Position numbers and translations under genes: made by a program | Shown: positions 14,910 through 37,829 of the stretch, one piece after another | How positions within the stretch are numbered: position 1 is the stretch's first letter | Layout of the letters: every line of letters starts with the position of its first letter | Source: Euzebya tangerina | GTDB taxonomy: Bacteria > Actinomycetota > Nitriliruptoria > Euzebyales > Euzebyaceae | Direction of reading: 5' to 3' | DNA length: 64,000 nt | Assembly: GCF_003074135.1 (NCBI RefSeq) | Contig: NZ_PPDK01000001.1 | Location: 1,116,001-1,180,000, forward strand | Notes under the pieces: model-generated | What the model saw: only the letters and a program-made list of their open reading frames with translations | Told to the model about the DNA's origin: nothing | Database searches by the model: none

Positions 14910-14979
14910 AACCGCCCCAGGGTAGTGGTCTGTCTCTCACATGACGCGCGTTGCCGCGGGCCCTCTATCGTGGGCCGTC

Positions 14980-16695: not shown

Positions 16696-18245
16696 GCACG
16701 TCCATCGGCCGCCGACTCGACGCCTTGGAAGATGCGGCGACGCTGATCAGGCGACACGACCTCGGCGGCTCCGCGGCGGCCGACGACACCGACGCGCTGA
16801 TCGCCCGTGCTCGCACCCGCATCCGGCACGGCACCGACCACACCGTGGTGGCGCTGGTCGGCTCGACAGGATCGGGGAAGTCATCGCTGCTCAACGCCCT
16901 GGCCGAGCAGGAGGTGGCCCGCACCAGCGTCACGCGCCCCACCACCTCGGTGACGCAGGGCGTCACGTTCGGCCTGCCTGCCGACGGCCTGCTGGACTCG
17001 ATCGGCGTCTCCCGCCGGCACCATCTGGCCGAGGTCCCGGACCACCTGAGCGGACTGGTGCTGCTGGACCTGCCCGACTTCGACTCGGTGCAGCGAGACC
17101 ACCGCCTCGAGGTGGACCGTCTGATCAGGTTGGTCGACCTGATGATCTGGGTCACGGATCCGCAGAAGTACGCCGACGACGCACTGCATCGGCAGTACCT
17201 GCAGCCGCTGTCCACCCACGCGGAGGTGATGCAGGTCGTCCTCAACAAGACCGACACCCTGACCGACGAGCAGCTGGCAGCCTGCCACGCCCATCTCGAC
17301 CAGCTGCTGGACGAGGACGGCTTGGCCGACCTGAGCCCGGTCCCGGCGTCGACGGTCACCCAGGGCGGTGTCGAGGAGGTGCGGGGGATCCTGGCCGCCG
17401 AGGTCACAGCCAAGGAGGTCGCGCTCCAGCGGATCAGCGCCGACATCGACGGCGAAGCGGCGCGACTGGCCGCCTTGGCTGACCGATCCGGTGCGTCGGA
17501 GGCGAGCCAGTCGACCCGCATCGTCGACGGGCTGGCCACAGCGGCGGGAGTCGACATCATCGCTGGCGTGATCGCGGCTCAGTACCAGCGGGATGCCGTG
17601 CTCTCGACCGGGTGGCCCCCGCTGCGGTTCGTGCGTCGCATCCGACGGTCGCCCGTCGGCCGCCTCGAGACGACCGCAGAGAACCCGGTGGCTGGTGCAG
17701 AGGTCAGCCGGACGCTGCGCCAAGCAGGCGCGGCCATCGAGTCCCACGTCGGGAGCGCCTGGGGACAGGCGGCCCAGCTGGACCTGCGCGAGAAGATCCA
17801 GCCGGTGACGCAGGCACTCGACACCAGGATCAGCCGGCGCGTTCAGGCCATGCGCCAGCCGCCACCCTGGTGGCGGGCCGTCAGCGGCCTGCAGACGGCG
17901 TTGATCGGCGTGGCCGTGATCGGGTTGTTCTGGCTGGTCGGGTTGGCGCTGGCCGAGTCCCTGCTCCTCATCGATGTCGCCGAGTTCACCCCGAGGATCC
18001 GCGGTGTTGCCGTCCCGACGGCCCTGCTGCTCGGGGGCGGTGTGCTGGGCCTGGTCGTGGCAACACTCAGCCGGCTGCTGGCCTCGGTCCTGGGGCGGCG
18101 CCATGCCCGCACGGCGGTCAAGCGGTTGCGGGACGACGTGGCGGCCGTCGCGCACGAGCACGTCATCGCGCCGCTCGAGACGCTGCTCGCCGACGCTGAG
18201 CAACTCGACGAACTGCTCGATGTCGCCCGCAGCCGAGTGGGATGA
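16692..18245 (+). CDS. membrane-anchored GTPase, second of a pair
   Basis: A 517-residue GTPase with canonical motifs: P-loop GSTGSGKSS (about 57-65), LDLPDFDSVQ (G3) and LNKTDTLTDEQ (G4 NKTD). This partner therefore keeps the guanine-specificity motif that the upstream protein lacks. Two membrane segments (about 400-430 and 445-475: TALIGVAVIGLFWLVGLALA and ALLLGGGVLGLVVATL) lie before a C-terminal helical tail. The two GTPases are translationally coupled and probably form a heteromeric membrane complex. It overlaps the following gene by ATGA. Confidence 0.85.
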   Translation: MSTSIGRRLDALEDAATLIRRHDLGGSAAADDTDALIARARTRIRHGTDHTVVALVGSTGSGKSSLLNALAEQEVARTSVTRPTTSVTQGVTFGLPADGLLDSIGVSRRHHLAEVPDHLSGLVLLDLPDFDSVQRDHRLEVDRLIRLVDLMIWVTDPQKYADDALHRQYLQPLSTHAEVMQVVLNKTDTLTDEQLAACHAHLDQLLDEDGLADLSPVPASTVTQGGVEEVRGILAAEVTAKEVALQRISADIDGEAARLAALADRSGASEASQSTRIVDGLATAAGVDIIAGVIAAQYQRDAVLSTGWPPLRFVRRIRRSPVGRLETTAENPVAGAEVSRTLRQAGAAIESHVGSAWGQAAQLDLREKIQPVTQALDTRISRRVQAMRQPPPWWRAVSGLQTALIGVAVIGLFWLVGLALAESLLLIDVAEFTPRIRGVAVPTALLLGGGVLGLVVATLSRLLASVLGRRHARTAVKRLRDDVAAVAHEHVIAPLETLLADAEQLDELLDVARSRVG

Positions 18246-19144
18246 GCACGCCCGCGAGCTTCGACGCGGTGATCATGGTCGACTACTCGGCCAAGCAGAC
18301 CGTCGGCCGCCGGGGCGGGGAGCAGGACGGCCTGTGGCTCGCTGCGGGTGGCGCAGCCATACCCGGTGCACCAGGCCCGAGGCCGTTCCGGACCCGCCTC
18401 GACCTGCAGGCACACCTCGAGCAGGCGCTGGCCGGCCACATCGAGTCAGGCCATCGGGTTCTGCTGGGCCTTGACTTCTGCTTCGGCTTCCCCAGCGGCA
18501 CGGCAAGTGCACTTGGTGCCCGTGCAGGCGAACCAGCCTGGTCGTGGATGTGGCAGACGCTCGGGGCGGCGATCACCGACACCGCCGATGCAGCCAACAA
18601 CCGCTTCGACGTCGCTGGCGCCTTGAACCAGCGGGTCGGTCACGGGGCAGGGCCGTTCTGGGGACACCCGCCGAGCATGACGATCCCGGACCTGGCGCCG
18701 ACGAAGCCGCCGTATCCCAGCAGCGGCCTGGTGGAGTGGCGACTGGTCGAGCGAACCCTCCAGTGGCGTGGTGCTGTCCCCAAGTCCTGTTGGCAGCTGT
18801 CGGGCGCCGGATCGGTCGGTGGCCAGAGCTTGGTCGGCATCGCGATGCTGGACCGCATGCGGCGCGGCGGCTTGGCCACCGCGTGGGATCACGGCGCCGT
18901 CGCCGTCTGGCCGTTCCAAGCGTGGTCGGACGCGCAGGTCGTGGTGGCTGAGGTCTACCCCAGCCTGGTCGATCCGTCTGGGCCGCCGACGCTGGTCCAC
19001 GATGCCCGGCAGGTCCTCGGACTGGTGGGCTGGGCGATCGACCGGCAGCACGATGTCCGATCGCTCCTCGCTGCGCCCCTCGAACTCGAAGACCCCACGG
19101 TCATCGGGGAGGAGGGGTGGATCCTCGGCGTTCCGGCCAGCTGA
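18242..19144 (+). CDS. conserved protein of unknown function (VDYSA/EVYPS family)
   Basis: A 300-residue soluble protein. An opening beta strand, FDAVIMVDYSAK, and the later motifs LLGLDFCFGFP, NNRFDVAGALNQ, GPFWGH, CWQLSGAGSVGGQSLVGI, VAVWPFQ and VVVAEVYPSLV match a family that is often mislabelled as molybdopterin-guanine-dinucleotide synthesis protein in alphaproteobacteria. The Asp-bearing first strand and the distal Glu-containing strand suggest an RNase H/DUF429-like fold; that is inference. It is translationally coupled to the GTPase pair, which is the only functional hint. Confidence 0.7.
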   Translation: MSTPASFDAVIMVDYSAKQTVGRRGGEQDGLWLAAGGAAIPGAPGPRPFRTRLDLQAHLEQALAGHIESGHRVLLGLDFCFGFPSGTASALGARAGEPAWSWMWQTLGAAITDTADAANNRFDVAGALNQRVGHGAGPFWGHPPSMTIPDLAPTKPPYPSSGLVEWRLVERTLQWRGAVPKSCWQLSGAGSVGGQSLVGIAMLDRMRRGGLATAWDHGAVAVWPFQAWSDAQVVVAEVYPSLVDPSGPPTLVHDARQVLGLVGWAIDRQHDVRSLLAAPLELEDPTVIGEEGWILGVPAS

Positions 19145-23824: not shown

Positions 23825-23913
23825 GGAGACGTCGCATAGTACGGCCTAGTGCGCTTCACTGCTAATGAAGTTGGGTGTAACAGCCCTCGAGGGTTCGAAT
23901 CCCTCCGTCTCCG
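23825..23913 (+). tRNA. tRNA-Ser (anticodon GCT)
   Basis: Acceptor GGAGACG (23825-23831) pairs with CGTCTCC (23906-23912), followed by discriminator G. An anticodon stem CTTCA/TGAAG encloses CTGCTAA, so the anticodon is GCT (reads AGC/AGU). A long variable arm and the GGTTCGAATCC T-loop are visible. CCA is not encoded. A TACACT element sits 12-17 bases upstream. Confidence 0.95.
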
Positions 23914-24024
23914 CGCGAGCGCCCGGCGGGCGTCCTGCCCCCTTTCGAACCCCCGGGTGCGGCAGTCGGTCCAGAGGTTCGATCATGACACCCGCATCCG
24001 CCCTCACCAGCGTAATCTGACCCC

Positions 24025-24465: not shown

Positions 24466-27093
24466 TCAGCAGGGCTGCGCGAGATCCGTTGCAACGTCGG
24501 CCGAGGTCGTCGCCGTCGGCGAGACCACCAGGGTGGGGAGGCGGTCGCCGCCAGGACAGGTCGCCGCCGCCGTCTCGGCCTGCAGGCGGTCGAGCTCGAT
24601 CAGCAGCAGTGGCCAGTTGAGGTCGGCGGACAGGCCGGCCGCGGCCAGGGTGTAGGCCCAGCCATCATCGGACCCGCCGGGGGCCAGGATGTGACCGGCC
24701 GGCACCGCAGGCCACAGCTCCGCACTGACTGCTGCTGCCGTCGCGAACCGGTTCGGCCCCTCCACGCGGGAGTCGGCCCCCAGCCCGTCGGCTGCCGCCT
24801 GACTGACCGCGGCCGCACCGCCGACCACCACCACGTCCGTCGAGGGGTGTCCCTGCAGCCAGGCCGCCGTGGCGGGGTGGGCACTGGCTGTCTGGGTCAG
24901 CAGGATCGGCTGGCCGGTCGCGGCCGCCCAGCCACCGGAAGCCACCGCGTCGGCCCATGCCGCAGTGGGGTTGTCGGCCGGCGCGTCGGCTCGGGCGACC
25001 ACGGCCATCTGGGGCTGCCCGAAGAGGCTGGCTGCCTGGTCCGCAATCGCCACCGCGGTCTCGACCCGTGAGGGTCCTGCCAACCGAATGGGGGTGTACC
25101 CCGCCGCCTGCAGCGACTGGGAGACCGCGGGCGAGATGGCCGTCTCACCGCCCAGCAGGAACACGGTTCCGGAGCCGGCCAGCAACCGGTCGATCTCATC
25201 CCGGGTGCGCGGGTCCAGCGTGCCGGTCGGCGTGTACAGCAGCGGACCGTCACCGGTCAGCACCGCCCCTGTCAGGCTGTCGGCGAACACGTCGTTGCGG
25301 GAGAGCACCACGATGCTGGCCCCACCGGTGGGGAACCGCTCGTTCGAGATCTGCACGGCGGCCTCGATGGGCTCGCCGATCGGAGGTGGGGGGATGGTCC
25401 CGGTCGCTGGCGAGTCGAAGTCTGCGCCATCCACCTGGACCTGGAGCGGTGTCAGCCCGGTGGCGGTGAGTGCGACCGTCGTGGTCAGGGTCCCAGCGGC
25501 CTCGACGACGCCTGGTTGACAGTCGACGCCACCCGTCACCGCAACGCAGCCATCCCCGGTCGCGGTCCCGGCGCCATCCAAGCGGACCTCGACCGGGCCA
25601 GCCGTACCGGCCATCAGCCCGGTGTTGGTTATCGTGATCTCGACCTGCCCGTCGGCCACAGCCGCGGTGCCGGAGAGGACGGCGATCGGCGTGACGGTCA
25701 CCGTGACCGTCGCCGTCGTCACCTGACCCTCGTCATCCACAGCGGTCACGGTCACGCTGTACTGACCAGGCTGCAGCCCGTCGGCGTCGAAGGTGGCGGT
25801 CTGACCCATCACGTCGGTGACCTCGTCGCCGTCGAGGTCCCAGAACAGCTCCACGGGTCCACCGTCGGGGTCGGTGGCCGTCGCGCTCAACTCGACCGAA
25901 TCGTCCTGCTCCACCTCGGCCGCGGCGGCGACGTCGATGACCGGGGGTTCGGTGCCGTTGCAGAACCGGCTGGTGCAGACCAGGACCTTCAGGTCATCGT
26001 TCGTCGAGTCCTGGTAGCTGATGACCGGGTGGCCGGCTGGCGTGAGCGCGATCGACGGGTGGTCGCCCACCTCACCGACCGTGTCGGGGAATTGCGGCTG
26101 GGGCGTGTCGCTGCAATCGGGTTGCAGGCAACGGAGGACCGCCAGGTCCCGCTGGTTCCCCTCGGTGTAGGTGATCGCCGGAAGGCGTCCCCCCTCCAGA
26201 GCGATCTCGGGGGTGTAGAACGAGGTGACCCCCGAGCCCGTGACCACGGGCTGGGCGGTCTGGGCGCCGCTGCAATCGGACGTGGTGCAGGCCACCAGGC
26301 GAAGTTCGGCGCCGCGGACGTACGCGACGACCGGGTTGCCATCCTCGTCGAGGGCCATCGTGGGGGAGTGGCTGTTCTCCGACTCGACGGTCTCCGTCTG
26401 CTGCGGGCCGGTGCAGTTGGGGTTGGTGCAGTGGACCAGCTGGATGCCGCCGCGAGCGAACGCGACCACGGGATTGCCGGAGGCGTCCAACTCGACCCAG
26501 GGCGTGTAGGCCACGCCGGCAGTGGTGATCGGCCGGGGCTGCTGTGACCCGGTGCAGCTCCGGTTCGTGCAGTGCACCAGCTGGATCGTCTCCGCATCGT
26601 TGTCGCGGTAGGCGATCACGGGGTTGTCGTCGGCGTCGAGGACCAGGGAGGGCGTGGATCCGACGTCGCCGTCACTGTCGACCGCCACGCCCGTCTGTGC
26701 CCCGGAGCAGTCGAGGGTGTCGCACCGAACGAGTCGCAGGTCGTCGTTAGCGGAGTCTCGGTGCGCGATGACCGGGTGGCCGTCGCTGTCCAGCGCCAGC
26801 GACAGGGTGAATCCCGAATTGCCGACCGTCTCGACCGTCTGGGGTGTTTGCTGACCGCTGCAGGACGGGTTGGTGCAGCGGATCAGCTTCAGGTTGCCGT
26901 TGGTCCCGTCGTAGTAGGCGATGACGGGATGACCCTGCTCATCCAGGGCCACCGAGGAGTAGTTGCCGACGATTCCGGCGGTGTCGAGTGTCCTGATCGA
27001 GTCCGCCGCCACTGGCGAGGCCGTCACGACGACGGCCAGTACCAGCATGCCAACGAGAAACCACCAGTGTCGTACCGTGCCACAACTGCTCAT
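24466..27093 (-). CDS. secreted CWB2 protein with seven-repeat propeller-like domain and PKD domain
   Basis: An 875-residue exported protein. The signal segment (WWFLVGMLVLAVVVTASP) ends near VAAD. Seven repeats follow (about 30-360), each with a S-x-ALD...GHPVIAY(Y/R)D...L-x-LVRC pattern and a Cx4C pair (such as CTNPSC); this suggests a seven-bladed beta-propeller with one disulfide per repeat. A PKD-type domain (about 375-460: DPDGGPVELFWDLDGD), a CARDB-like strand domain and three C-terminal CWB2 repeats (about 590-875: SRNDVFADSLTGA, VVGGAAAVS) complete it. Likely cell-wall attached and ligand-binding; the ligand is unknown. ATG 27093 follows AGAGGACAG; the frame opens at 27192. Confidence 0.85.
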   Translation of the reverse strand: MSSCGTVRHWWFLVGMLVLAVVVTASPVAADSIRTLDTAGIVGNYSSVALDEQGHPVIAYYDGTNGNLKLIRCTNPSCSGQQTPQTVETVGNSGFTLSLALDSDGHPVIAHRDSANDDLRLVRCDTLDCSGAQTGVAVDSDGDVGSTPSLVLDADDNPVIAYRDNDAETIQLVHCTNRSCTGSQQPRPITTAGVAYTPWVELDASGNPVVAFARGGIQLVHCTNPNCTGPQQTETVESENSHSPTMALDEDGNPVVAYVRGAELRLVACTTSDCSGAQTAQPVVTGSGVTSFYTPEIALEGGRLPAITYTEGNQRDLAVLRCLQPDCSDTPQPQFPDTVGEVGDHPSIALTPAGHPVISYQDSTNDDLKVLVCTSRFCNGTEPPVIDVAAAAEVEQDDSVELSATATDPDGGPVELFWDLDGDEVTDVMGQTATFDADGLQPGQYSVTVTAVDDEGQVTTATVTVTVTPIAVLSGTAAVADGQVEITITNTGLMAGTAGPVEVRLDGAGTATGDGCVAVTGGVDCQPGVVEAAGTLTTTVALTATGLTPLQVQVDGADFDSPATGTIPPPPIGEPIEAAVQISNERFPTGGASIVVLSRNDVFADSLTGAVLTGDGPLLYTPTGTLDPRTRDEIDRLLAGSGTVFLLGGETAISPAVSQSLQAAGYTPIRLAGPSRVETAVAIADQAASLFGQPQMAVVARADAPADNPTAAWADAVASGGWAAATGQPILLTQTASAHPATAAWLQGHPSTDVVVVGGAAAVSQAAADGLGADSRVEGPNRFATAAAVSAELWPAVPAGHILAPGGSDDGWAYTLAAAGLSADLNWPLLLIELDRLQAETAAATCPGGDRLPTLVVSPTATTSADVATDLAQPC

Positions 27094-27221
27094 GAGACTG
27101 TCCTCTGCGCCGGTCAGGACGGTCCGTACCCGTGCCTGATCACCTGCGAGACGGATGGCGAGGGGTGCCTGATACGTGACGCCCTGTTGCACGACCGACC
27201 TGACGGCAAACTGGGGTGGTC

Positions 27222-28337
27222 ATGATGACCGCTACGGCTGTGAGCCCCGTACTCACTGACGCGGAGATCACCTTCGTCCTGCCCGACCCTGACCGGCGGT
27301 ATCAGGAGGTGACGCTGTATCAGGAGCTCCAGCGTCCGCGCGAGAGCCCGGTTGCAACGTGGGCCGACGGGGAGTGGCGCGCTCGGCTGCCGCGAGTCGA
27401 TCAGGCCCCCAAGGGACCGAAGCGGATGGAGTACGCATTCGTCGTCACCCACCCCGACGGCGGCAAGGAGTTCATCACCGATCCTGGCAATCCGGTCGTC
27501 GCGGATGGCCCCTTCGGCGCGAAGTCGGTGCTGCAGTTCCCCACCTACCAGCCCCCGGCATGGCTGCAGGCCGAGGCGCCGGCAGGCGGATTCGGCCACA
27601 TCGAGTGGAGCGAGATCCCCCTCTCCCGCTACAGGTCGGCCGTGACCTGCGGCGTCTGGACCCCGGCCGGTCACAACCGAGACGACGAACTCCCACTGCT
27701 GCTGGTCCACGACGGCCCCGAGTTCGACGAGCTCAGCCGTCTAACCCACCTGCTGGCACTGGCCGTGGCCGAGGGGCGGATCCCCCCGATGCGTGCGGCC
27801 CTGCTCGCGCCGGTGCCGAACCGACGCAACGAGACCTACTCCGCCTCGGCCCACTACGCCGACGCCCTGGCAACCCGGGTGGTCCCCCACCTCGACCATC
27901 ACGCCCCCAGCCCAGCCGACGACCGCCCAGCCGTCATGGGCGCAAGCCTCGGTGCCCTGGCGGCCCTCCACGCGGCCCACCGCCACCCCGCCACGTTCGG
28001 CGACCTCGTCCTGCTCTCCGGCAGCTACTTCCGCATGCGGTCGGACCATCAGGAGCGTGGGTTCGCCCACTTCAACCGGATCTCCCGCTTCGTGGGCCGG
28101 GTCGCGACCGGACGCGCGACGCTGCCGGTGAGGACGATCGCGATCAGCGTGGGAACCGTGGAGGAGAACTACGTCAACAACCAGATCATGGCCAGCGGCC
28201 TGGAGGCTGCCGGCCACGACGTGCGGTTGACGACCTTCGCAGACGGCCACACCTATACGGCCTGGCGGGACGCGCTCGACCCGGTCCTGCTCGACGTCCT
28301 GGCTGACGGGATGAGTGCACGACGCAGCACCCTGTAG
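27222..28337 (+). CDS. enterochelin-esterase-like alpha/beta hydrolase
   Basis: A 371-residue protein. An N-terminal immunoglobulin-like segment (EITFVLPDPDRRYQEVTLY...EYAFVV) is followed by a hydrolase domain of the Fes/esterase D type. VHDGPEFDEL supplies the oxyanion region, and the nucleophile is Ser in GASLGALAALHAAHR; the His is probably in DGHTYTAWR. No signal peptide, so it acts in the cytoplasm. It opens a rightward run with a second esterase and an ATP-grasp enzyme. ATG 27222 was chosen from several start codons within nine bases. Confidence 0.85.
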   Translation: MMTATAVSPVLTDAEITFVLPDPDRRYQEVTLYQELQRPRESPVATWADGEWRARLPRVDQAPKGPKRMEYAFVVTHPDGGKEFITDPGNPVVADGPFGAKSVLQFPTYQPPAWLQAEAPAGGFGHIEWSEIPLSRYRSAVTCGVWTPAGHNRDDELPLLLVHDGPEFDELSRLTHLLALAVAEGRIPPMRAALLAPVPNRRNETYSASAHYADALATRVVPHLDHHAPSPADDRPAVMGASLGALAALHAAHRHPATFGDLVLLSGSYFRMRSDHQERGFAHFNRISRFVGRVATGRATLPVRTIAISVGTVEENYVNNQIMASGLEAAGHDVRLTTFADGHTYTAWRDALDPVLLDVLADGMSARRSTL

Positions 28338-28362
28338 GACCAGCAAAGTGTAGAACTCCAGC

Positions 28363-29115
28363 ATGAACCAGCGAGAGCCGCGCCGCGTGTCCATCGACGC
28401 GCCGAGCATCGGAGGAGCTGGCCAGGTCTGGGCCTACGGACACTACGGCCGTCCCGTCCTGGCCTTCCCGTCCCAGCAGGGCGAGGTCTGGGACTTCGGC
28501 AACAACGGGATGGTGGACGCCATCGGCTGGCTGATCGACGAGGGCCGGATCAAGCTGTACTGCGTGGAGTCCTTCGATGGGGCCAGCTGGTTCGACGACT
28601 CCATCCCGTTCGAGGAGCGCGCTCATCGCCACAACGCCTACGTGGGTTGGATCTACGACCGCGTGGCCCCCGCGATCGCCGGGGACGCCGGCGGACGGCA
28701 GGACATCATCGCCACCGGGTGCAGCTTCGGCGCCTACCATGCCGTCAACGCCACCCTCCAACGGCCTGACTTCTTCCCCATCGGCTTGGGCCTGTCCGGG
28801 GTCTACGACATCCGCACCATCGGTGCCTGGGGTGAGCAGGGCCAGGCGGTCTACTTCGCCAACCCCGTCGACTACGTCGCCAACCTGCATGGCGACCACC
28901 TCGACTGGTTGCGGGGCAACAGCCATCCGGTCCTCGTGGTCGGCCAGGGCCAGTGGGAGGACACCACTGGGGCCCTCGAGTCCACCACGTCCTTCGGTCA
29001 GCTCTGCCGTGACAAGGGCCTGAACGTCGAGGTCGACCTGTGGGGTCACGACATCCCGCACGACTGGCCGTCATGGCGCAGGATGCTGGCCCACCACCTC
29101 CCCCGATTCTGCTAG
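28363..29115 (+). CDS. esterase-superfamily hydrolase (COG4947-like)
   Basis: A 250-residue alpha/beta hydrolase. The nucleophile elbow is GCSFGAYHA (Ser), preceded by GRPVLAFPSQQGEVWDFGNNGMV and VESFDGASWFD, features of the COG4947 esterase/lipase group. The His is in WGHDIPHDWPSWRR. This group is commonly encoded beside ATP-grasp enzymes. Cytoplasmic. It follows the first esterase after 25 bases and precedes the ATP-grasp gene by 11 bases, so the three are probably one transcript. Confidence 0.85.
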   Translation: MNQREPRRVSIDAPSIGGAGQVWAYGHYGRPVLAFPSQQGEVWDFGNNGMVDAIGWLIDEGRIKLYCVESFDGASWFDDSIPFEERAHRHNAYVGWIYDRVAPAIAGDAGGRQDIIATGCSFGAYHAVNATLQRPDFFPIGLGLSGVYDIRTIGAWGEQGQAVYFANPVDYVANLHGDHLDWLRGNSHPVLVVGQGQWEDTTGALESTTSFGQLCRDKGLNVEVDLWGHDIPHDWPSWRRMLAHHLPRFC

Positions 29116-29126
29116 ACCCTCTACTC

Positions 29127-30374
29127 ATGGCGAATCAGCTCATCGGACTGTTGCTCGGCACCGAAGAGGACTGGCCGGCGATGTTCGAGCGCATATTCGC
29201 CGAGCTGGACCTCGCCATCGAGCACGGCGGCGAGACCCACACGTTCGAGGTCGAGCGGATCACGATCGAGCCGTTCGACCTGCGGAGCGTCCCCGACTAC
29301 GACCTGGTCGTCGACCGGCTGGCCCACTGGTACTACCAGCCCCGCGAGTGGCTGAAGAAGGTCGCGTTGATGGACGACGTGTACCTGATGAACAACCCGT
29401 TCACCTTTCAGTCGATGGAGAAGCACTCCGCCTACTGCATGCTGATGCGCCTGGGGCTGAAGGTCCCCGACACCTGGCTGGTGCCGACCAAGGAGCCGGT
29501 CGACAACGAGCGGTACGCCTACACGGCTGCCAAGTACAACACGATGTTCGACCTCGAACAGGTCGCCGAGAACATCGGCTACCCGCTCTTCATGAAGCCC
29601 TTCGACGGTGGCGCCTGGGTGGGCGTCAGCCGGATCACCTCTCCCGAGCAGTTGCACCAGGCCTACGACGAGTCGGGGCAACGGCTCATGCACCTGCAGG
29701 CGTCGGTGGAGGGGTTCGATGCCTTCGCCCGGAGCCTCACCATCGGCCCCGAGACGATGGTCATGCGGTTCGACCCCGACAAGCCGATGCACGAGCGGTA
29801 CCAGGTCGACCACGGCTTCCTGTCCGCGCGGGCGGGGGAGGAGGTGCTCGCGATATCCCGGCTGGTCAATGCGCTGTTCCGCTGGGAGTTCAACAGCTGC
29901 GAGTGCCTGGTCCGCGGGGCAGACGTCCAGCCGATCGACTACGCCAACGCCTGCCCTGACGTGTCGCTCATCAGCCTGGGCTACTACTTCCCGTGGGCCA
30001 TCTCGCGGCTCGTCAAGTGGGCCGTGTACTGCACGGTGACCGGTCGCAAGATGCGCGTGAGCCTGGACCTGCAGCCGTGGTTCGAGGTCGCGGACGACGA
30101 GTCGTTGTCCTACCAGGACAAGCTGGCCGAGTACGACCGGCTGTCCCGGGAGTACTTCGAGGCTGAGGCATACCAGGCCTTCTGCGACGAACACCTGTCA
30201 CAGGTGGACGACGTGACGCACGGCATCGTCACCTCCGCGTGGTTCGACGGCTTGCTGGTCGACACGGTCACGCGCACCTTCCCCGAGTACGAGCACGACG
30301 AGATGATCGCCCGTTACCGCGGCCTGTCGGGCGCCTGGGCCGCCGATCAGTCGGCGACGTCCACGGCCCCGTAG
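29127..30374 (+). CDS. ATP-grasp family ligase
   Basis: A 415-residue enzyme of the ATP-grasp fold, which usually joins a carboxylate to an amine or thiol using ATP. Seen motifs: LMKPFDGGAWVGVS-like (FMKPFDGGAWVGVS; ATP-binding Lys and Gly-rich loop), and the metal-binding pair in WEFNSCECLVRGADVQPIDYANACPDVSL (Glu, Asn). A unique N-terminal half carries YYQPREWLKKV and YLMNNPFTFQSMEKH. The substrate cannot be named. ATG 29127 was chosen because the frame upstream (29040) overlaps the esterase gene. Confidence 0.85.
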   Translation: MANQLIGLLLGTEEDWPAMFERIFAELDLAIEHGGETHTFEVERITIEPFDLRSVPDYDLVVDRLAHWYYQPREWLKKVALMDDVYLMNNPFTFQSMEKHSAYCMLMRLGLKVPDTWLVPTKEPVDNERYAYTAAKYNTMFDLEQVAENIGYPLFMKPFDGGAWVGVSRITSPEQLHQAYDESGQRLMHLQASVEGFDAFARSLTIGPETMVMRFDPDKPMHERYQVDHGFLSARAGEEVLAISRLVNALFRWEFNSCECLVRGADVQPIDYANACPDVSLISLGYYFPWAISRLVKWAVYCTVTGRKMRVSLDLQPWFEVADDESLSYQDKLAEYDRLSREYFEAEAYQAFCDEHLSQVDDVTHGIVTSAWFDGLLVDTVTRTFPEYEHDEMIARYRGLSGAWAADQSATSTAP

Positions 30375-30417
30375 GCCCACAAGCCGTCACGACCTGGGTC
30401 CAGGTTCGGATTGGACC

Positions 30418-33400
30418 TCACGGGACTGAGGCGACCTTCCGTGTCGCCACCACCTCACCGTCCCGCAGGCCGGTGATCATCAGCGTCTCCTGTTCGGTCT
30501 CGCCGAGTGCCACCTCGACCGGGGTGCCCGCGGTGGTCGCTCCGGCATGGATGGTCCGGGCACCGACCTCGACCTGGAGGTGATCGATCCCGGTCGTGTG
30601 GACGGTCAGCCGGGTGTCGGTCCTGCTGGCGGTGAGTGCCACGGCCGTTCGTGTGACGGCATCCAAGGCGGCCACGGCTCCTCCGATGAGGTCGACGTTG
30701 TCCTCCAGCAGGTCGCGCCTGGTCAGGTGATGCCGGATGTCCGGCACCACGCCGAGATCCTCCACGACCTCGCCCTCGTGGTCGCCCACCCGAAGGGTCC
30801 GTCGGACCGAGACGTTGAACGACGCCCCGCCAGGGAGTCGCTGGAACGGGTTGTCGGATCTATCAGCGCCACCGAGCAGCCACAGCAGGTGGTGGGACCA
30901 GACGTTGGCGCCTCCGGCTCCGGTGGTGTCGGCGGTGCCGATGACCGGGCCGATCCCGTGGTCCTGGAACCCCGCGGCGAAGATGTCGGTGGCGCTGTAG
31001 CACAGCGCATCCACGATGAGCACCGCGGGGCCGTAGTAGCGCTGTCCCAGTCCGTTGGCGAAGTCCTCCGGTGTGATCGAGTGGCCCCGTGAGTAGGCCG
31101 CACCTGTGGCCGTGGCCTGCTCGACCGAGGCCAGCCACGGCCCGAGGTCCAGCTCGGACACCGCTGCGGAGGGGGCATTGCGGCGACACAGCTCCGCAAC
31201 CAGTTCGGTGGCGGCGAACTGCGTCGGTTCCGGCCGCACCGGCTTGGACGTGAGCGTCTGCAACAGGCCCTCGGCGGCGAAGATGTGTCCGCCGCTGTTG
31301 CCGCGCACGTCGATCACGAGTCCGGCCCCGGGAAGCTGTTCGGCGAGGCGGATGAACTCGTCCACGAAGCCTGCTGGGTCCTCGGTCTGGAACGTGAAGA
31401 TCCGGATGTAGCCGTACCTGCCGTTGGGTCCGATCCGCTTGGCCCGGAAGACCTGGGGCAGCCGGGAGTCCAGCGGGTCGGCCTCGTCCGCGGGCGCCGC
31501 ACCGGACCCAGCAGCCAAGGCTGCCAAGGGGGCGTACAACTGCTTCTTCATCTCGTTGACCCGGTCGGTCTGGATGTCAAAGCCTCTGGCCGTGTCGGCC
31601 AGCGCCGCCGTGAGCTCGGGATCCGGTCGGTGATCACCCGCTGGCTCCACGCCGGTGTCCGGCGTCCAGATGAGCCAGTCGTGACGGAGTTCGCGCCGAA
31701 CTCCATCGGAACCGACGTAGGTCAGCGTGATCCAGTCAGCCAGCGGCGGCAGGGTTCGCACCAGCGGCCGGGTGGTCAGCGCCGCCAGACCGCGGGCGTG
31801 TCGGGCCGCGGCGTTGCTGCCCGCCTGCCGCCGGGCGTTGTCAGCGATCGCGCGGTCGATCGGCATGCCGTTCCAGTGGGTCACCTCGACCCCGGGGACG
31901 AACGCCGGATGGTCGGCCAGATCTCCAGCCGTTCGTGAGACCAGGTAGCGGCGTTGCTGCGCCCCGTCGTGGTACTCCTCGATCAGGAACGGCACGAAGG
32001 CGATCCGCTGGGCGTAGGGCTCGGGGAGCAGGTACGTCGTGTGGAGGTCCCGCAGCGAGGAGAACACCTCGATCATCTCTGCGTGGAAGGCCCGGTCGTC
32101 ACCGGGAAGGCTGACGGGGTCGCCCGCGGCCGACCGAAGCCGGTAGTCCAGCAGTCGCAGCCGCTGCACGGGGTCGACGGCGTGCATCGAGCGCTTGAAG
32201 TCCAGGTGGACGTACACGCCGTCCAGGAGCTGCTGGGCCGCCGCGACCAACCGTCGTCGGGCCGCTACGTCCAGCACACCGGTCTGGTCGTCCAGGACGA
32301 CCACGTCCGCCTGCGGCTCGCCTCTGGGTCGCAGCGTTCCGCGCTCGGAGGGAGGGACGGGATCCTGCCCGTACAGCTCCGGCAGATGGTCCTTGACGAA
32401 CTCCGGCAGGTTGCCCTGCCGGGCGATCAGCGGCAGGAAGTCGGGGTCGTCGGCCACGGTGAGGGGGTCCAGACGGAGCGGCGTGACGATCTGGCTGAGC
32501 GGCACCGCGGCCGCGACGGGGGAGACGTCGGCATGGGCGGCAAGTGGTCGCAGCGCGTCCTCTTCGCCGGCCTCATGGTCGAGGTCGAGCACCCAGCGGT
32601 CGGTGGCACCATCGACGGTGGCCAGGGCGCCGTTCAGGGCAGAGCTGCCACGCTCCAGCTCAGCGGCGACGGTCGGCAGGTTGGCCAGGCCCTCCAGCAG
32701 CCGGTCTCGAGCCTCGGTGAGGCTGAGGTCGGCCACCAGGGGGTGGCTGGCGGCGTGGCTGATGTTCAGTCGACGGCTCCGTCCACCGACGGTGAAGCGC
32801 TCCAGACCGTCGATGCCTCGCATGAGGTTGTAGGTGCCGTAGCGACGCACGCCGTTGATGACCACCAGGTCGATGTCGGTCTCGAGGGCCTGGATGAGGC
32901 CGAGGTGCGGATCCCGGGTGGTGTCACCCACGACCAGCAGGTCGGCCCGCTTGCCCGCCTCGATCGCCCCCAGCTGGCCACCCCAGTTCACGATCTGGGC
33001 TGCGTCCCGGGTGGCCATGGCCACCAGGTCCCGGGGGGTCAGGGCACCGCCGAGGGCGTGCTGACTGACCACGTGGGCCGCCTTCAGCTCACCCAGCAGG
33101 TTCTTGCTGCCCGTCGGCGACCAGTCCGAGCCGAGGCCCATGGCAACCCCGGCCCGACGTGCCCGAACGACGTCGGTGGTGCTGCCGTAGAGCAGCAGGT
33201 TGCTGAGCGGTGACCACACGATCCGGCCGCCTCGGGAGCTCATGGTGTCGAAGTTGCGCCCCCGGAGCCCGGTGCTGTGGATCCCCACCAGCGCATCGTT
33301 GATGGCCCAGCGCCGACCCTCCACTCGCAGTCGTTGGAAGTGGCGGTTCGCGGTGTCGTCCACCCCCTCGGCCAGGTGCAGCAGGAAGGTGTGGCCCCGA

Positions 33401-33990
33401 TCGGCGGCGTGTTCGATCCGCTCGCGGAACCGGCCCGCGTTCGTCACATCGGCCACGCGGGTCGTTGCCTCCGGCAGGTCTGGATCGTCGGTCTGCTCGA
33501 CGTTGCGGACGATCCCGCGGTAGTAGGCCGGGACCTGGTTGAAGCTGAGCAGCCGGATGCCCTGGCTGGTGGTCACGCCCGCCAGCAAGGCCTTGGCCTC
33601 GACGTACCGGATGATGGCCTGCAGGTACCCCTCGGCGCGACCGAGCACCCGCATCGGCCCGCTGACCAGCGTCTTGTACTCGGAGTGGCCGGGCCACTGG
33701 CCCCGGTTGGTGAACAGGCGGGGCACGTCCCACAGGCGCAGGATGTTGTAGGCCATGTGGTTGTGCAGCTCGATCAGCCCGGGGTAGATCGTGCCGCGGG
33801 AGCGGATCTGGCGCGCCCCGCGGAACTCGTCGGGAGCCGGCTGCTCGGCAGAGCGGACCGCGACGATGCGACCGGCGTCGATGTAGACAACGCCGTCCTC
33901 GATGACATCGTCGGCCGCGTTCATGGTGACGACGCGGCCGCACAGCGACCAGCGCTCACCAGCCAGCGGATCGATCGCGGTGTCGGTCAT
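30418..33990 (-). CDS. amidohydrolase fused to an S41 C-terminal-processing-type peptidase
   Basis: A 1190-residue two-enzyme protein. Residues 1-~430 form a metal-dependent amidohydrolase: H76-N-H78 in IELHNHMAYN, His in LLHLAEG, His in GIHSTGL and Asp in LGSDWSPTGSKN, as in the chlorohydrolase/guanine deaminase group. Residues ~450-1130 hold a spacer and an S41 peptidase (NGRYGYIRIFTF, GLVIDVRGNSGG) with the Ser at about 999 in DALCYSATDIFAAG. The last ~70 residues look like a small beta domain. No signal peptide, which is unusual for S41. A GGGAG ribosome site precedes ATG 33990. It is followed upstream by the UDG-like gene ten bases away, so both share a transcript. Confidence 0.85.
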   Translation of the reverse strand: MTDTAIDPLAGERWSLCGRVVTMNAADDVIEDGVVYIDAGRIVAVRSAEQPAPDEFRGARQIRSRGTIYPGLIELHNHMAYNILRLWDVPRLFTNRGQWPGHSEYKTLVSGPMRVLGRAEGYLQAIIRYVEAKALLAGVTTSQGIRLLSFNQVPAYYRGIVRNVEQTDDPDLPEATTRVADVTNAGRFRERIEHAADRGHTFLLHLAEGVDDTANRHFQRLRVEGRRWAINDALVGIHSTGLRGRNFDTMSSRGGRIVWSPLSNLLLYGSTTDVVRARRAGVAMGLGSDWSPTGSKNLLGELKAAHVVSQHALGGALTPRDLVAMATRDAAQIVNWGGQLGAIEAGKRADLLVVGDTTRDPHLGLIQALETDIDLVVINGVRRYGTYNLMRGIDGLERFTVGGRSRRLNISHAASHPLVADLSLTEARDRLLEGLANLPTVAAELERGSSALNGALATVDGATDRWVLDLDHEAGEEDALRPLAAHADVSPVAAAVPLSQIVTPLRLDPLTVADDPDFLPLIARQGNLPEFVKDHLPELYGQDPVPPSERGTLRPRGEPQADVVVLDDQTGVLDVAARRRLVAAAQQLLDGVYVHLDFKRSMHAVDPVQRLRLLDYRLRSAAGDPVSLPGDDRAFHAEMIEVFSSLRDLHTTYLLPEPYAQRIAFVPFLIEEYHDGAQQRRYLVSRTAGDLADHPAFVPGVEVTHWNGMPIDRAIADNARRQAGSNAAARHARGLAALTTRPLVRTLPPLADWITLTYVGSDGVRRELRHDWLIWTPDTGVEPAGDHRPDPELTAALADTARGFDIQTDRVNEMKKQLYAPLAALAAGSGAAPADEADPLDSRLPQVFRAKRIGPNGRYGYIRIFTFQTEDPAGFVDEFIRLAEQLPGAGLVIDVRGNSGGHIFAAEGLLQTLTSKPVRPEPTQFAATELVAELCRRNAPSAAVSELDLGPWLASVEQATATGAAYSRGHSITPEDFANGLGQRYYGPAVLIVDALCYSATDIFAAGFQDHGIGPVIGTADTTGAGGANVWSHHLLWLLGGADRSDNPFQRLPGGASFNVSVRRTLRVGDHEGEVVEDLGVVPDIRHHLTRRDLLEDNVDLIGGAVAALDAVTRTAVALTASRTDTRLTVHTTGIDHLQVEVGARTIHAGATTAGTPVEVALGETEQETLMITGLRDGEVVATRKVASVP

Positions 33991-34000
33991 GGGATCTCCC

Positions 34001-35821
34001 TCAGCTCACGGTCCGCAGGCGATCGGCCGCCATCCGCTCGGCCGGTGAGAGCGGCTCTGGGTCGAGTTGGTCAACCCAACGCGGGAGCAGCAGCTTGTAG
34101 TAGTCGGGTGACGGGCTGCCGTCTTGGCGTCCGCGGGCCGCTCGGTCGCCGCACGTTCCCCGCCACCGAGGTGTGCCATAGGGGAGATCCCAGCGCGGGA
34201 TCTGGCCGCGCCTGCCGTCGTAGCGGAATGACGCGGGCGCATCGGTGGCCGTGCCAAGCGACTCGATCGCCGCAAGTGTCCCGTGCCAGCTGGCCAGCCA
34301 GTTGCGCTGGCCGTACGCCTTCATCGACACCACCGGCACGCCGGCCGGCGCGACGTGGTCGATCAGCCGCCCTGATGCTGGTCCGACGGCGAGGATCGCG
34401 CCGAGGTCGGGGCTGACCGTGGACACCTCCGCCAAAATCAGGTGGTAGATGGCGCGAACGCGGTCGTCGTCGATGATCGCTCGGATAGCTGCAGCACGTA
34501 GATCGTCGGTGTCGACCGGCAGCACCCGGAGGATCAGGTAGCTGCGGTCGATGCCCATGGCCTCCAGGAATGGCTGCAGGTGCTGACCGGCGTCACCGCT
34601 CAGCGCCCGGCCACTGAACAGGTCATCGTGCCCGTGCTGGTCGGCGAGGACGACGACCTTGGCCCCCCGGGGCCGCCCCCGGTGGACGGCGCCGTATCCG
34701 AGGGAGGGGTGTGCGGTGGCGCCGAGGGCCGTGAAGTCCGGCCACGGGTGCCCGGGCTCGCCACCCATGAACAGGCGGGCGAACCGGCTGCCGGGGCCGC
34801 GGTCGTAGTCCCCGTAGTTCCCGACCGCCGGCTCGTAGGGGACGTCCCCCGGGTCATCGCGGTACCCCTCGTCATCGCCCCCGCCCGCGCCGAAGGGATA
34901 GGAGACCTGCTGGCCCCGGTTGTTGTACGTCCCGTCGGCCGAGAACAGCTGGATGGATCGCTGCCCGTCCTTCCGGTTGCTCGATGTGCCGCCTCGCCCA
35001 AGTCGCCAGGTGGTGCCGAGGGGCAGGTCTCGGAACGGGATCGGGGCGCTGCGGTAGCGGTACGTCGATGCTGGTCGGGGTTGCCCATCAGGGTCGGGTG
35101 GGAGCCAGGTCGAGTCAATCTCCCGCCACTGCTCGATCTGTCCCAGCGCCCTGGTGAAGTCGGTGATCACCGCTCTGGCCGAGCCGGCCGCGGCCGCCCC
35201 GGGGTGGATCACGCCGAGCAGGCGGGTTATCGGACCCAGAACGGTCCCGTCCGCCTCGTGCAGCCGTGACGGGCGTCCGTGTCCGCCGTGATGCTCGAGC
35301 CAGGACACCGCGGTCTCCTCGGCAGCGGTGCCGACGGCGATGACCAGGTGGACCTGGTTGCGCGCCAGGACGTAGTCGAGGATCGCGGTCCGCTGCTGAA
35401 CGATCGGACTGGCCGGATCCTGACCGAGCGCGCGGATGCCCGGCTCGCTGTACTGCCCGAAGATCGGATAGAGGAACGTGTTGAGGAACAGGTAGGACCG
35501 CGTGATGCCGATGTGGTTCAGGAGGTACTGCATCCTGGCGCCGGTGCCGCCGGTGAACGAGCGTCCGGACAGCGACTCATCCTGGGCCCCCTCCTGCCCG
35601 ATGATGAGAACCCGGACATCGTCATCCGTCAACCGACCTCGGTAGTGCATGGGCCCGAAGTGCCAGCGGAACTTCTCGCGGCCGAGGACGGCCTTGCCCA
35701 GTCCCCGGTAGTTCGGGGTCTGGGCGAACAGCCGCGGCCACCGCCGGTTCCGGGCCGGCCCGGGATCGTACTCCCAGGGCTGACCCCGCCCCTCCCAGTA
35801 CTGGCTGTAGGTCGCTTCCAT
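34001..35821 (-). CDS. tandem uracil-DNA-glycosylase-like protein
   Basis: A 606-residue protein with two halves of the UDG fold. The first (about 65-230) has VLIIGQEGAQDESLSGRSF (compare the GEAPG...GRPF motif of family 4 enzymes), GGTGARMQYLLNHIGITRSYLFLN and an IHPGAA motif resembling the catalytic HP loop. The second half (about 390-520) repeats VVVLADQHGHDDLFSGRALSG and GIDRSYLILRVLPVD but lacks an HP motif. Almost no Cys is present, so the iron-sulfur cluster of family 4 is absent. Enzyme activity on DNA is therefore doubtful; a base- or nucleoside-like ligand pocket is possible. It is cotranscribed with the amidohydrolase/S41 gene. Confidence 0.75.
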   Translation of the reverse strand: MEATYSQYWEGRGQPWEYDPGPARNRRWPRLFAQTPNYRGLGKAVLGREKFRWHFGPMHYRGRLTDDDVRVLIIGQEGAQDESLSGRSFTGGTGARMQYLLNHIGITRSYLFLNTFLYPIFGQYSEPGIRALGQDPASPIVQQRTAILDYVLARNQVHLVIAVGTAAEETAVSWLEHHGGHGRPSRLHEADGTVLGPITRLLGVIHPGAAAAGSARAVITDFTRALGQIEQWREIDSTWLPPDPDGQPRPASTYRYRSAPIPFRDLPLGTTWRLGRGGTSSNRKDGQRSIQLFSADGTYNNRGQQVSYPFGAGGGDDEGYRDDPGDVPYEPAVGNYGDYDRGPGSRFARLFMGGEPGHPWPDFTALGATAHPSLGYGAVHRGRPRGAKVVVLADQHGHDDLFSGRALSGDAGQHLQPFLEAMGIDRSYLILRVLPVDTDDLRAAAIRAIIDDDRVRAIYHLILAEVSTVSPDLGAILAVGPASGRLIDHVAPAGVPVVSMKAYGQRNWLASWHGTLAAIESLGTATDAPASFRYDGRRGQIPRWDLPYGTPRWRGTCGDRAARGRQDGSPSPDYYKLLLPRWVDQLDPEPLSPAERMAADRLRTVS

Positions 35822-35960
35822 CGTTGCCTCACCTCACGCTCACGAGGTAAGAGTCAGACCGGGAGGCGCTGATACGCCTCGGTGGGCAGCAGGCATGTCG
35901 TATCACCGAACCCGTCAGCTTCCTCTTCCTCATGTGTGACCATCACCGACAGGAGCCGCC

Positions 35961-37094
35961 ATGGCCAGCCATCACGATCTCGAGCCCGTCGAGCCGCGGG
36001 AGGCATTCGAGGAGGACACGCTCGACGCCCGCTACTCCCAGGCCGCGGTGCTGCTCTCCGTCGGTGCGGCGGTGTCCGGCGTCACCGACATGGTCCCCAC
36101 CCACGAGTCCTTCGCGATGCCGGACCTGCATCCGCTGGCTGGCACCGGACCGGTGCCCCTCCCTGATGCGGTCGCAGAACTCGACGTCGCACCGCATGAC
36201 TACCTGACCGGTCAGATCGGCCGAATCCCATCCGACGAGGCGGCTCGGCTGACCCGCAACCTCTTCGACGGCCCCGGTCGTGGGGTGGCGGTCAACACCG
36301 CGGCCGCGCTGGTGGAAGCCGGGATGCACAACACCTCACCGCTGGTCCGGGCGGCGGCAGCAACCGCAGCCCTGGACACCACAGGGCCACGAGAGGACGT
36401 CATCGCCGAGTTGGAGGAGGCAGCACAGGCCCGCGACACCGACACCCGTGAGCTGGCCCGGACCGGCTTGTACCGCGCCAACCCGCGGCACCCGCTGCTG
36501 GACCGGTACGTGGTCAACCGGCCAGAGGTCTCCACCCGACGGCGGCGGTCGAACACAGCGGTGCTCAGTCACGGCACCTGGGCGGCTCGCAGCCGCTGGT
36601 GGCGGCCCGGCGGGGACTTCTACACCTACCTGGACGGCCTGACCCCGCCGCTGCACGTGCACGACGAGAGCTACATGTGGTCGGGCGCCTACTCTGCCGC
36701 CGCACGCGACCTGGCCGCCGACGACTTGGTCGACTGGGTGGCCGCCCAGGGTCTGGACCGACCCGACTTCTTCGCCCACTCCCACGGCGCCACAGTGGGG
36801 AACCTGGCCACGCAGCGGGGCCTCCGTCTTGGCCGCCTCGTCGTGATGGGGCTGCCCGTTCACAGTGCTTGGCTGCCCGACCTGGCACAGGTCGACCAGT
36901 TGATCGACGTCCGGGTTCGGGCGGACCTGGTCATCCTGGCTGATCGCGGTGGTCAACGTCTGCCGGCGTCGCGTCGGGCCGACGACCGCGTGATCGAGCG
37001 GCGCCACGGCTGGTTCAGCCACGCCTCCACCCACGAGCCCGCCTACTGGGCTCGGCACGACATCCCTTCGTCGCTGCTGGTGCCCGTTCCGTGA
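35961..37094 (+). CDS. alpha/beta-hydrolase-like protein with HEAT-like N-terminus
   Basis: A 377-residue protein. The first ~185 residues are helical and repeat-like (LTRNLFDGPGRGVAVNTAAALVEAG, SPLVRAAAATAALD), resembling HEAT-type helices. The rest is hydrolase-like: SHGTWA near the oxyanion region, AHSHGATVGN as a nucleophile elbow (Ser) and a C-terminal HGWFSHASTHEP with candidate His. ACAGGAG precedes ATG 35961. It is divergent from the UDG-like gene and is followed by a tiny HEAT-like gene. Confidence 0.75.
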   Translation: MASHHDLEPVEPREAFEEDTLDARYSQAAVLLSVGAAVSGVTDMVPTHESFAMPDLHPLAGTGPVPLPDAVAELDVAPHDYLTGQIGRIPSDEAARLTRNLFDGPGRGVAVNTAAALVEAGMHNTSPLVRAAAATAALDTTGPREDVIAELEEAAQARDTDTRELARTGLYRANPRHPLLDRYVVNRPEVSTRRRRSNTAVLSHGTWAARSRWWRPGGDFYTYLDGLTPPLHVHDESYMWSGAYSAAARDLAADDLVDWVAAQGLDRPDFFAHSHGATVGNLATQRGLRLGRLVVMGLPVHSAWLPDLAQVDQLIDVRVRADLVILADRGGQRLPASRRADDRVIERRHGWFSHASTHEPAYWARHDIPSSLLVPVP

Positions 37095-37121
37095 TGTGGC
37101 AGGTGGGGCTAGCGTGGCCCC

Positions 37122-37469
37122 ATGGGAACGCTGGCCACCGCAGCCACGCTCGGGACCGGCCTGGTCTGGCTGGCCACCGGGTCCGACCGGGCGGGGAGGC
37201 GTCTGGTCGACGTGGCCACCAGCGAGGAGGAGGACGGTTCCCTGGTGGCGGTGATGATGCTGACCCGAGGTGGCGACCGGGCGGTCCCGCTGCTCGAGCG
37301 TGCCGCCCGTGGCGGTGAACCGGACCTCGCGACGGTTCTGTTGGGGATCGGCAGTGACCAGGCCGGGGAGGCGCTCGGCAGCCTGGCTCGCAGTGACGAC
37401 CCCGCGGTGGCCCGGGCCGGTGCGGCTGCGCTGCACCAGCTCGAGCGTGCCCGTGACCGGCCCGGCTGA
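37122..37469 (+). CDS. small HEAT-like protein
   Basis: A 115-residue protein. Residues 40-110 form two or three short helical repeats (VPLLERAARGGEPDLATVLLGIGSD, ALGSLARSDDPAVARAGAAAL) of HEAT type, which often mediate protein contacts. It starts 27 bases after the hydrolase-like gene, whose N-terminal half also looks HEAT-like, so the two products may interact. No enzyme motif. Confidence 0.65.
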   Translation: MGTLATAATLGTGLVWLATGSDRAGRRLVDVATSEEEDGSLVAVMMLTRGGDRAVPLLERAARGGEPDLATVLLGIGSDQAGEALGSLARSDDPAVARAGAAALHQLERARDRPG

Positions 37470-37514: not shown

Positions 37515-37601
37515 GGAGACGTGCCCGAGCGGACGAAGGGACTTGTCTTGAAAACAAGCGAGCGTGCAAGCGTTCCGTGGGTTCGAATCCCACCGTCTCC
37601 G
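37515..37601 (+). tRNA. tRNA-Ser (anticodon TGA)
   Basis: Acceptor GGAGACG (37515-37521) pairs with CGTCTCC (37594-37600), then discriminator G. The anticodon stem CTTGT/ACAAG encloses CTTGAAA (anticodon TGA, reads UCA and related codons). A long variable arm and GGTTCGAATCC are present. A TACACT element lies 12-17 bases upstream, as for the other tRNA-Ser. Confidence 0.95.
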
Positions 37602-37829
37602 CTGTAGCGAAGTGGCCGCCGAACTTCGGGTTTGGCTCTTGTCGGCGGGTCTGCTCACCGGCTTGTAGCCGTTTCGGAGCCACTAGAACCACGGGGGTCC
37701 TCGACGGTGGTCGATCGGTGTGGCGACCGAAGCTGTCGGAGTTGGTGGTCTGTCAGGCGGCCCCGGCCTCGTGTCGGTGCACGACTTGGACAGTTGGAGA
37801 GCCGTCGTGACCCGCTCAATCCGAATTCC

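Follow-up and report, generated by a model that had tools for sequence, protein, structure and literature searches.

We analysed a block of seven adjacent genes (positions 27,222 to 37,469) in a 64,000-nucleotide window of the actinobacterium Euzebya tangerina (contig NZ_PPDK01000001.1, positions 1,116,001 to 1,180,000), the window contig being part of a 4.78-Mb actinobacterial assembly. The block encodes two alpha/beta-hydrolases (est1 and est2), an ATP-grasp ligase, an amidohydrolase fused to an S41 peptidase, a tandem uracil-DNA glycosylase (UDG)-superfamily protein, an alpha/beta-hydrolase-like protein (hyd) and a small HEAT-like protein (Table 1). Very probably, it contains two separate modules: module A, comprising est1, est2 and the ATP-grasp gene (27216-30374), and module B, in which the UDG-superfamily gene is followed by the amidohydrolase–S41 fusion gene (30418-35821). 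An earlier note on this DNA had proposed that all seven genes form a single enzyme system, making a modified peptide or nucleotide-amide and removing it again, as a signal or as a defence-like response. The genes and domains listed there are real, as attested by a codon GC3 (third-position G+C) pattern like that of real genes in all seven open reading frames, by the domain matches and by the ATP-grasp fold; as noted there, the block contains no transporter.

Table 1 Features of the seven-gene block and its flanking tRNA genes (window positions).
Feature	Position	Strand	Evidence
tRNA-Ser(GCT)	23825-23914
est1, Fes-like alpha/beta-hydrolase	27222/27216-28337	+	PF00756 esterase, E 3.6e-16; catalytic S244, H345
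est2, divergent alpha/beta-hydrolase	28363-29115	+	weak Pfam matches (S9, esterase); catalytic S121, H233
ATP-grasp ligase, separate family of ~415 aa	29127-30374	+	fold by Foldseek
Amidohydrolase–S41 fusion	30418-33990	-	amidohydrolase PF01979, E 1.2e-13; S41 PF03572, E 1.8e-17
Tandem UDG-superfamily protein	34001-35821	-	UDG PF03167, E 2.6e-12; second UDG-like domain in C-terminal half
hyd, alpha/beta-hydrolase-like protein	35961-37094	+	weak HEAT (E 0.022)
Small HEAT-like protein	37122-37469	+	weak HEAT (E 0.0011); directly after hyd, same strand
tRNA-Ser(TGA)	37515-37602

Module A is a widespread, conserved actinobacterial operon. Orthologues of its ATP-grasp protein with 55-72% identity were present in 14 of 60 related genomes (short weak matches left out), and their alignment placed the start of the window gene 11 bases past est2. 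A GTDB-based contig collection yielded 393 ATP-grasp relatives, from which 80 loci were kept. When neighbourhoods were counted over 100 ATP-grasp loci, est1 was found nearby in 88, est2 in 63 and all three genes in 62, usually arranged as est1–est2–ATP-grasp along a single strand; many Actinoplanes had est1 and the ATP-grasp gene only, and no ATP-grasp copies were found on plasmids. The catalytic serine and histidine were invariant in 73 sequences for est1 and 56 for est2, Ser121 and His233 of the latter being conserved together with acidic residues. The other genes of the block were absent from 99 of the 100 ATP-grasp loci (the exception being genome G099), and both the 80 contig-collection loci and the 14 relatives displayed combinations of est1, est2 and ATP-grasp without module B genes.

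Module B is a rare, patchy and mobile pair. Among 396 actinobacterial genomes, the amidohydrolase occurred in seven and the UDG in six, plus a weaker match in G410, these being the same seven genomes, from five families (f1, f3, f4, f15 and f17). The two genes adjoined each other in all seven; in six the UDG gene preceded the amidohydrolase gene in the same orientation, and in G086 the two were divergent. The chance of two random 7-of-396 sets coinciding is 3e-15, a figure that is too small because the genomes share ancestry. The S41 peptidase was part of a fusion protein in the window and G044, a separate protein in G045 and on another contig in G099, and no S41 peptidase lay next to the pair in G015. 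In all six non-window genomes the pair had no adjacent esterases; moreover, G015, G044 and G410 had no ATP-grasp match, and G045 and G086 carried ATP-grasp and module B on separate contigs. A phage origin of module B was rejected, as neither phage records nor viral contigs yielded the amidohydrolase, and the amidohydrolase tree contained too many open forks for dating transfers.

Co-occurrence of at least four of the seven genes in distant genomes had been proposed as support for one functional unit. No locus besides the window held four, the best being G099 with three. Since the neighbourhood data show that modules A and B largely travel apart, we reject the seven-gene unit. In G099 (L130), the UDG, amidohydrolase and ATP-grasp genes and a mechanosensitive-channel gene lie within ~5 kb, without est1 or est2; the related G086 has a channel-gene homologue next to est1–est2–ATP-grasp, with its UDG–amidohydrolase pair on a different contig. 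This arrangement fits insertion of module B near a resident ATP-grasp locus together with loss of est1–est2, a single case that is indistinguishable from chance. The UDG gene of G099 also follows, on the same strand, a conservon-like set (kinase-like, roadblock, DUF742 and ATP/GTP-binding proteins; L130 9624-13967).

We next consider the predicted chemistry of module B. The nearest solved relative of its UDG is BdiUng (Blr0248 of Bradyrhizobium diazoefficiens, PDB 5gn2), which the UDG family profile finds at 2e-66 and which the window protein resembles in sequence (N-terminal domain, E 5.6e-18) and fold. The G099 protein aligns with BdiUng over its full length (E 2.1e-104). Unlike BdiUng, the window UDG is a tandem duplication, and its motif A, like that of three near homologues, reads GQEGA and not GQDPA (with the catalytic Asp), the form found in G099 and G086; because of this motif we term it BdiUng-related, not a member. 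No BdiUng-type UDG copies were found on plasmids. In the partner protein, the amidohydrolase spans residues ~1-545 and the S41 peptidase residues ~546-1190. Six residues (H76, H78, H205, E208, H238 and D289) were invariant in ten aligned amidohydrolases; they form the pattern HxH...HxxE...H...D, the signature of the guanine/cytosine-deaminase branch of the amidohydrolase superfamily. The nearest solved relatives, atrazine chlorohydrolase (AtzA) and guanine and 8-oxoguanine deaminases (profile matches 1e-18 to 1e-29), share this signature of metal and catalytic residues, the window enzyme differing from them by an extra C-terminal region and by the S41 fusion. All its NCBIfam matches were far below the curated cut-offs, including that to guanine deaminase (TIGR02967; 75 bits vs 375). 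The S41 part exceeded its PF03572 cut-off (63.8 bits vs 24), and its catalytic S999 and DxRGNxGG core were near-invariant.

A glycosylase and a base-deaminase-type enzyme make a coherent chemical pair, and we infer that they act in sequence. The BdiUng-related glycosylase would bind or excise unusual DNA bases (uracil-, hydroxymethyluracil- or xanthine-like). Deamination of the released base, or of a related nucleotide, would fall to the guanine-deaminase-type amidohydrolase, and proteolysis would be contributed by the S41 part, which is fused in the window and elsewhere separate or absent. BdiUng-like glycosylases are described as broad in specificity, with uracil derivatives, hypoxanthine and xanthine as possible substrates (PMC8307549). 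We give nucleobase chemistry for module B, with its predicted catalysis and substrates, about an even chance of being correct.

The surroundings of module B hint at a role in biological conflict. G015 (L044) has a six-gene operon on one strand, encoding a subtilase, an alpha/beta-hydrolase, a small protein, a caspase (PF00656, 7.5e-15; PADLOC caspase, 5.7e-7), the UDG and the amidohydrolase, with gaps of -4 to ~50 nucleotides; a subtilase gene also lies near the pair in G410. The small protein has one hydrophobic stretch and is encoded 5' of the caspase gene, as in the two-gene EACC1–caspase conflict system (PMC7159879), to which the G015 operon adds further enzymes. The small protein gave no Pfam match, EACC1 included, even at E 10; a caspase is present in one of the seven module B genomes (G015) and not in the window. 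On proteobacterial plasmids, amidohydrolase relatives adjoin AbiH, helicase or restriction genes (Rhizobium and S. fredii) or DptH and nuclease genes (Massilia). A Variovorax plasmid carries an operon of S41, P460-like, amidohydrolase and UDG genes, and on Azospirillum p5 the amidohydrolase and a family-1-like UDG are ~7 kb apart among GMC, GDPD, HAD, M4 and S8 genes. The Variovorax UDG differs from that of the window: a profile relationship between them was rejected, with no match of weight, and it too is family-1-like. Phage defence by base-excising DNA glycosylases has recently been reported, one case being the Brig3–BapA operon, in which BapA strips glucose from a DNA base (PMC13160076). 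As far as the operon descriptions can be likened, Brig3–BapA and module B both pair a DNA glycosylase with a hydrolase in one operon, the partner removing glucose from the base in the former and being a base-deaminase-type amidohydrolase in the latter.

Because the G015 operon combines the pair with a caspase and a small membrane-type protein, and because amidohydrolase relatives lie in plasmid defence islands, we tentatively propose, as its most likely role, that module B is the effector of a biological-conflict (immunity) system. The defence-like response suggested earlier gains some support, for module B alone, with a chemistry of nucleobases and not of an ATP-grasp product. A complete scheme is doubtful, namely an undescribed immune set in which the glycosylase would excise modified bases of invader DNA, the amidohydrolase would deaminate the freed base or a related nucleotide as an effector or signal step, and the S41 or caspase protease would act as a trigger. 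Several observations weigh against this reading of module B. The window UDG, of uncertain activity, may bind rather than cut DNA bases, since its motif A is GQEGA and not GQDPA, and BdiUng is, to our knowledge, the sole assayed member of these families. The plasmid defence neighbours come from about four records, without comparison to chance, and the EACC1 label for the G015 small protein is a guess from its position. In the window itself, PADLOC matched none of the six proteins scanned, and the block contains no caspase or recognised defence gene.

Two other roles for module B were weighed. A repair glycosylase and a base-salvage deaminase could together clear oxidised or deaminated bases as a housekeeping function without an immune role, as the described breadth of BdiUng-like glycosylases (PMC8307549) and the presence of guanine and 8-oxoguanine deaminases among the nearest amidohydrolases would suggest. 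We regard this as unlikely given the very patchy presence of the pair (7/396), the plasmid relatives in mobile and defence regions, the protease fusion and the linkage to a caspase and subtilases. A place for the amidohydrolase family in secondary-metabolite or catabolic clusters rich in hydrolases and oxidases, with UDGs and proteases recruited for self-protection or scavenging, is rather improbable. Such clusters are suggested by Azospirillum p5 and R. johnstonii pRlX3, where the amidohydrolase sits among GMC oxidoreductase, S8, P460-like or unknown genes (on p5 additionally GDPD, HAD, M4 and UDG genes), but no biosynthetic core enzyme was seen in them, their gene composition varies, and several actinobacteria have the UDG–amidohydrolase pair on its own.

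That all or most of the seven genes constitute one pathway making and removing an amide-linked metabolite is very improbable: the proximity of ATP-grasp, amidohydrolase and UDG genes in the distant actinobacterium G099 and the over-representation of ATP-grasp in module B genomes (4/7 vs 27/396; Fisher p 5e-4, or 4.5e-3 without the window, a test confounded by phylogeny, as it takes no account of common descent and the same class is enriched for both modules) are set against the 99 ATP-grasp loci without module B, the module B genomes without ATP-grasp or with it on a separate contig, the lack of est1 and est2 at the G099 locus and the opposite strands of the module A and B genes. A link between the two modules has weak support. 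The best overall explanation, in which we place about as much trust as doubt, is that two independent modules and two orphan genes came to lie side by side in the block by chance or at a hot spot.

Neither module was described in the literature searched. Module B is the more interesting part of the block: a glycosylase strictly paired with a base-deaminase-type enzyme in a mobile unit, in some cases joined by proteases, would point to a broader class of nucleobase-directed immunity, for which the UDG–amidohydrolase pair offers a ready two-gene test set. For module A, a pathway common in actinobacteria, neither a product nor a description was found. Among the plasmid records, two clusters of large fused hydrolases (S8–S41; HAD–M28–M36; GMC, GDPD, HAD–hemerythrin and M4), at L144 6153-17932 and L150 6800-25190, share unknown proteins, and no description of them was found in the literature searched. 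Plasmids of S. meliloti widely carry the Variovorax-type UDG, which, in the one examined (L151 9019-11475), lies directly before an annotated choline dehydrogenase gene.

The predicted structure of the module A ATP-grasp protein (mean pLDDT, the predicted local distance difference test score, 72) had its nearest Foldseek matches among D-Ala-D-Ala ligases; an L-amino-acid ligase and ArgX were matched as well. It shares the fold and ATP-binding core of D-Ala-D-Ala and L-amino-acid ligases; unlike them, it gives short sequence matches only and belongs to a distinct two-esterase operon, and its identity as a D-Ala-D-Ala ligase was rejected (25 bits vs NCBIfam cut-offs of 243 and more). The esterase core of est1 is common to enterochelin esterase (Fes), the match covering the C-terminal 280 residues of est1, and identity with Fes (NF007758) was likewise rejected (79.3 bits vs a curated cut-off of 222); no siderophore genes were noticed near est1. 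Graspetide gene clusters have operon partners that differ from those of the module A ATP-grasp. It is natural to infer that module A is an amide- or peptide-forming pathway, in which the ATP-grasp enzyme would link a carboxylate with an amine (or hydroxyl) and est1 and est2, as serine hydrolases, would activate, trim or hydrolyse the product. Additional L-amino-acid-ligase-like ATP-grasps were found nearby in 8 of the 100 loci, several with second copies of both hydrolases. An extended relative (L196 3-13748) comprises three L-amino-acid-ligase-like ATP-grasps, an esterase, an alpha/beta-hydrolase and the ATP-grasp, intermixed with glycogen-type genes (GlgC-like, an alpha-amylase family member with CBM48, and GH57).

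The block is flanked by two tRNA-Ser genes (Table 1). In the same-genus genome G001, the two tRNA-Ser genes are only 2.2 kb apart and a phage-type integrase adjoins tRNA-Ser(TGA) (L201 4283-5590), which makes it plausible that the site is an integration hot spot. No integration scars were found between the tRNA-Ser genes of the window, where the similarity was limited to the tRNA 3' ends and is expected anyway. The last two genes of the block, hyd and the small HEAT gene, are orphans without counterpart in relatives, and nothing indicates their membership in module A or B. No Pfam match above cut-off was obtained for hyd, in which an AHSHG nucleophile-type motif was spotted by eye; it had no counterpart in the 60 related genomes, and homology to the alpha/beta-hydrolase of the G015 operon was considered and rejected, none being found. 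On its other side, the block adjoins a gene for a large protein with PKD and CWB2 cell-wall-binding domains (24466-27192), and a different CWB2 protein is encoded at the corresponding tRNA-Ser(GCT) in G001. Farther away in the window (14941-19144), two neighbouring dynamin-family GTPase genes precede a third gene, for which Pfam gave no match.

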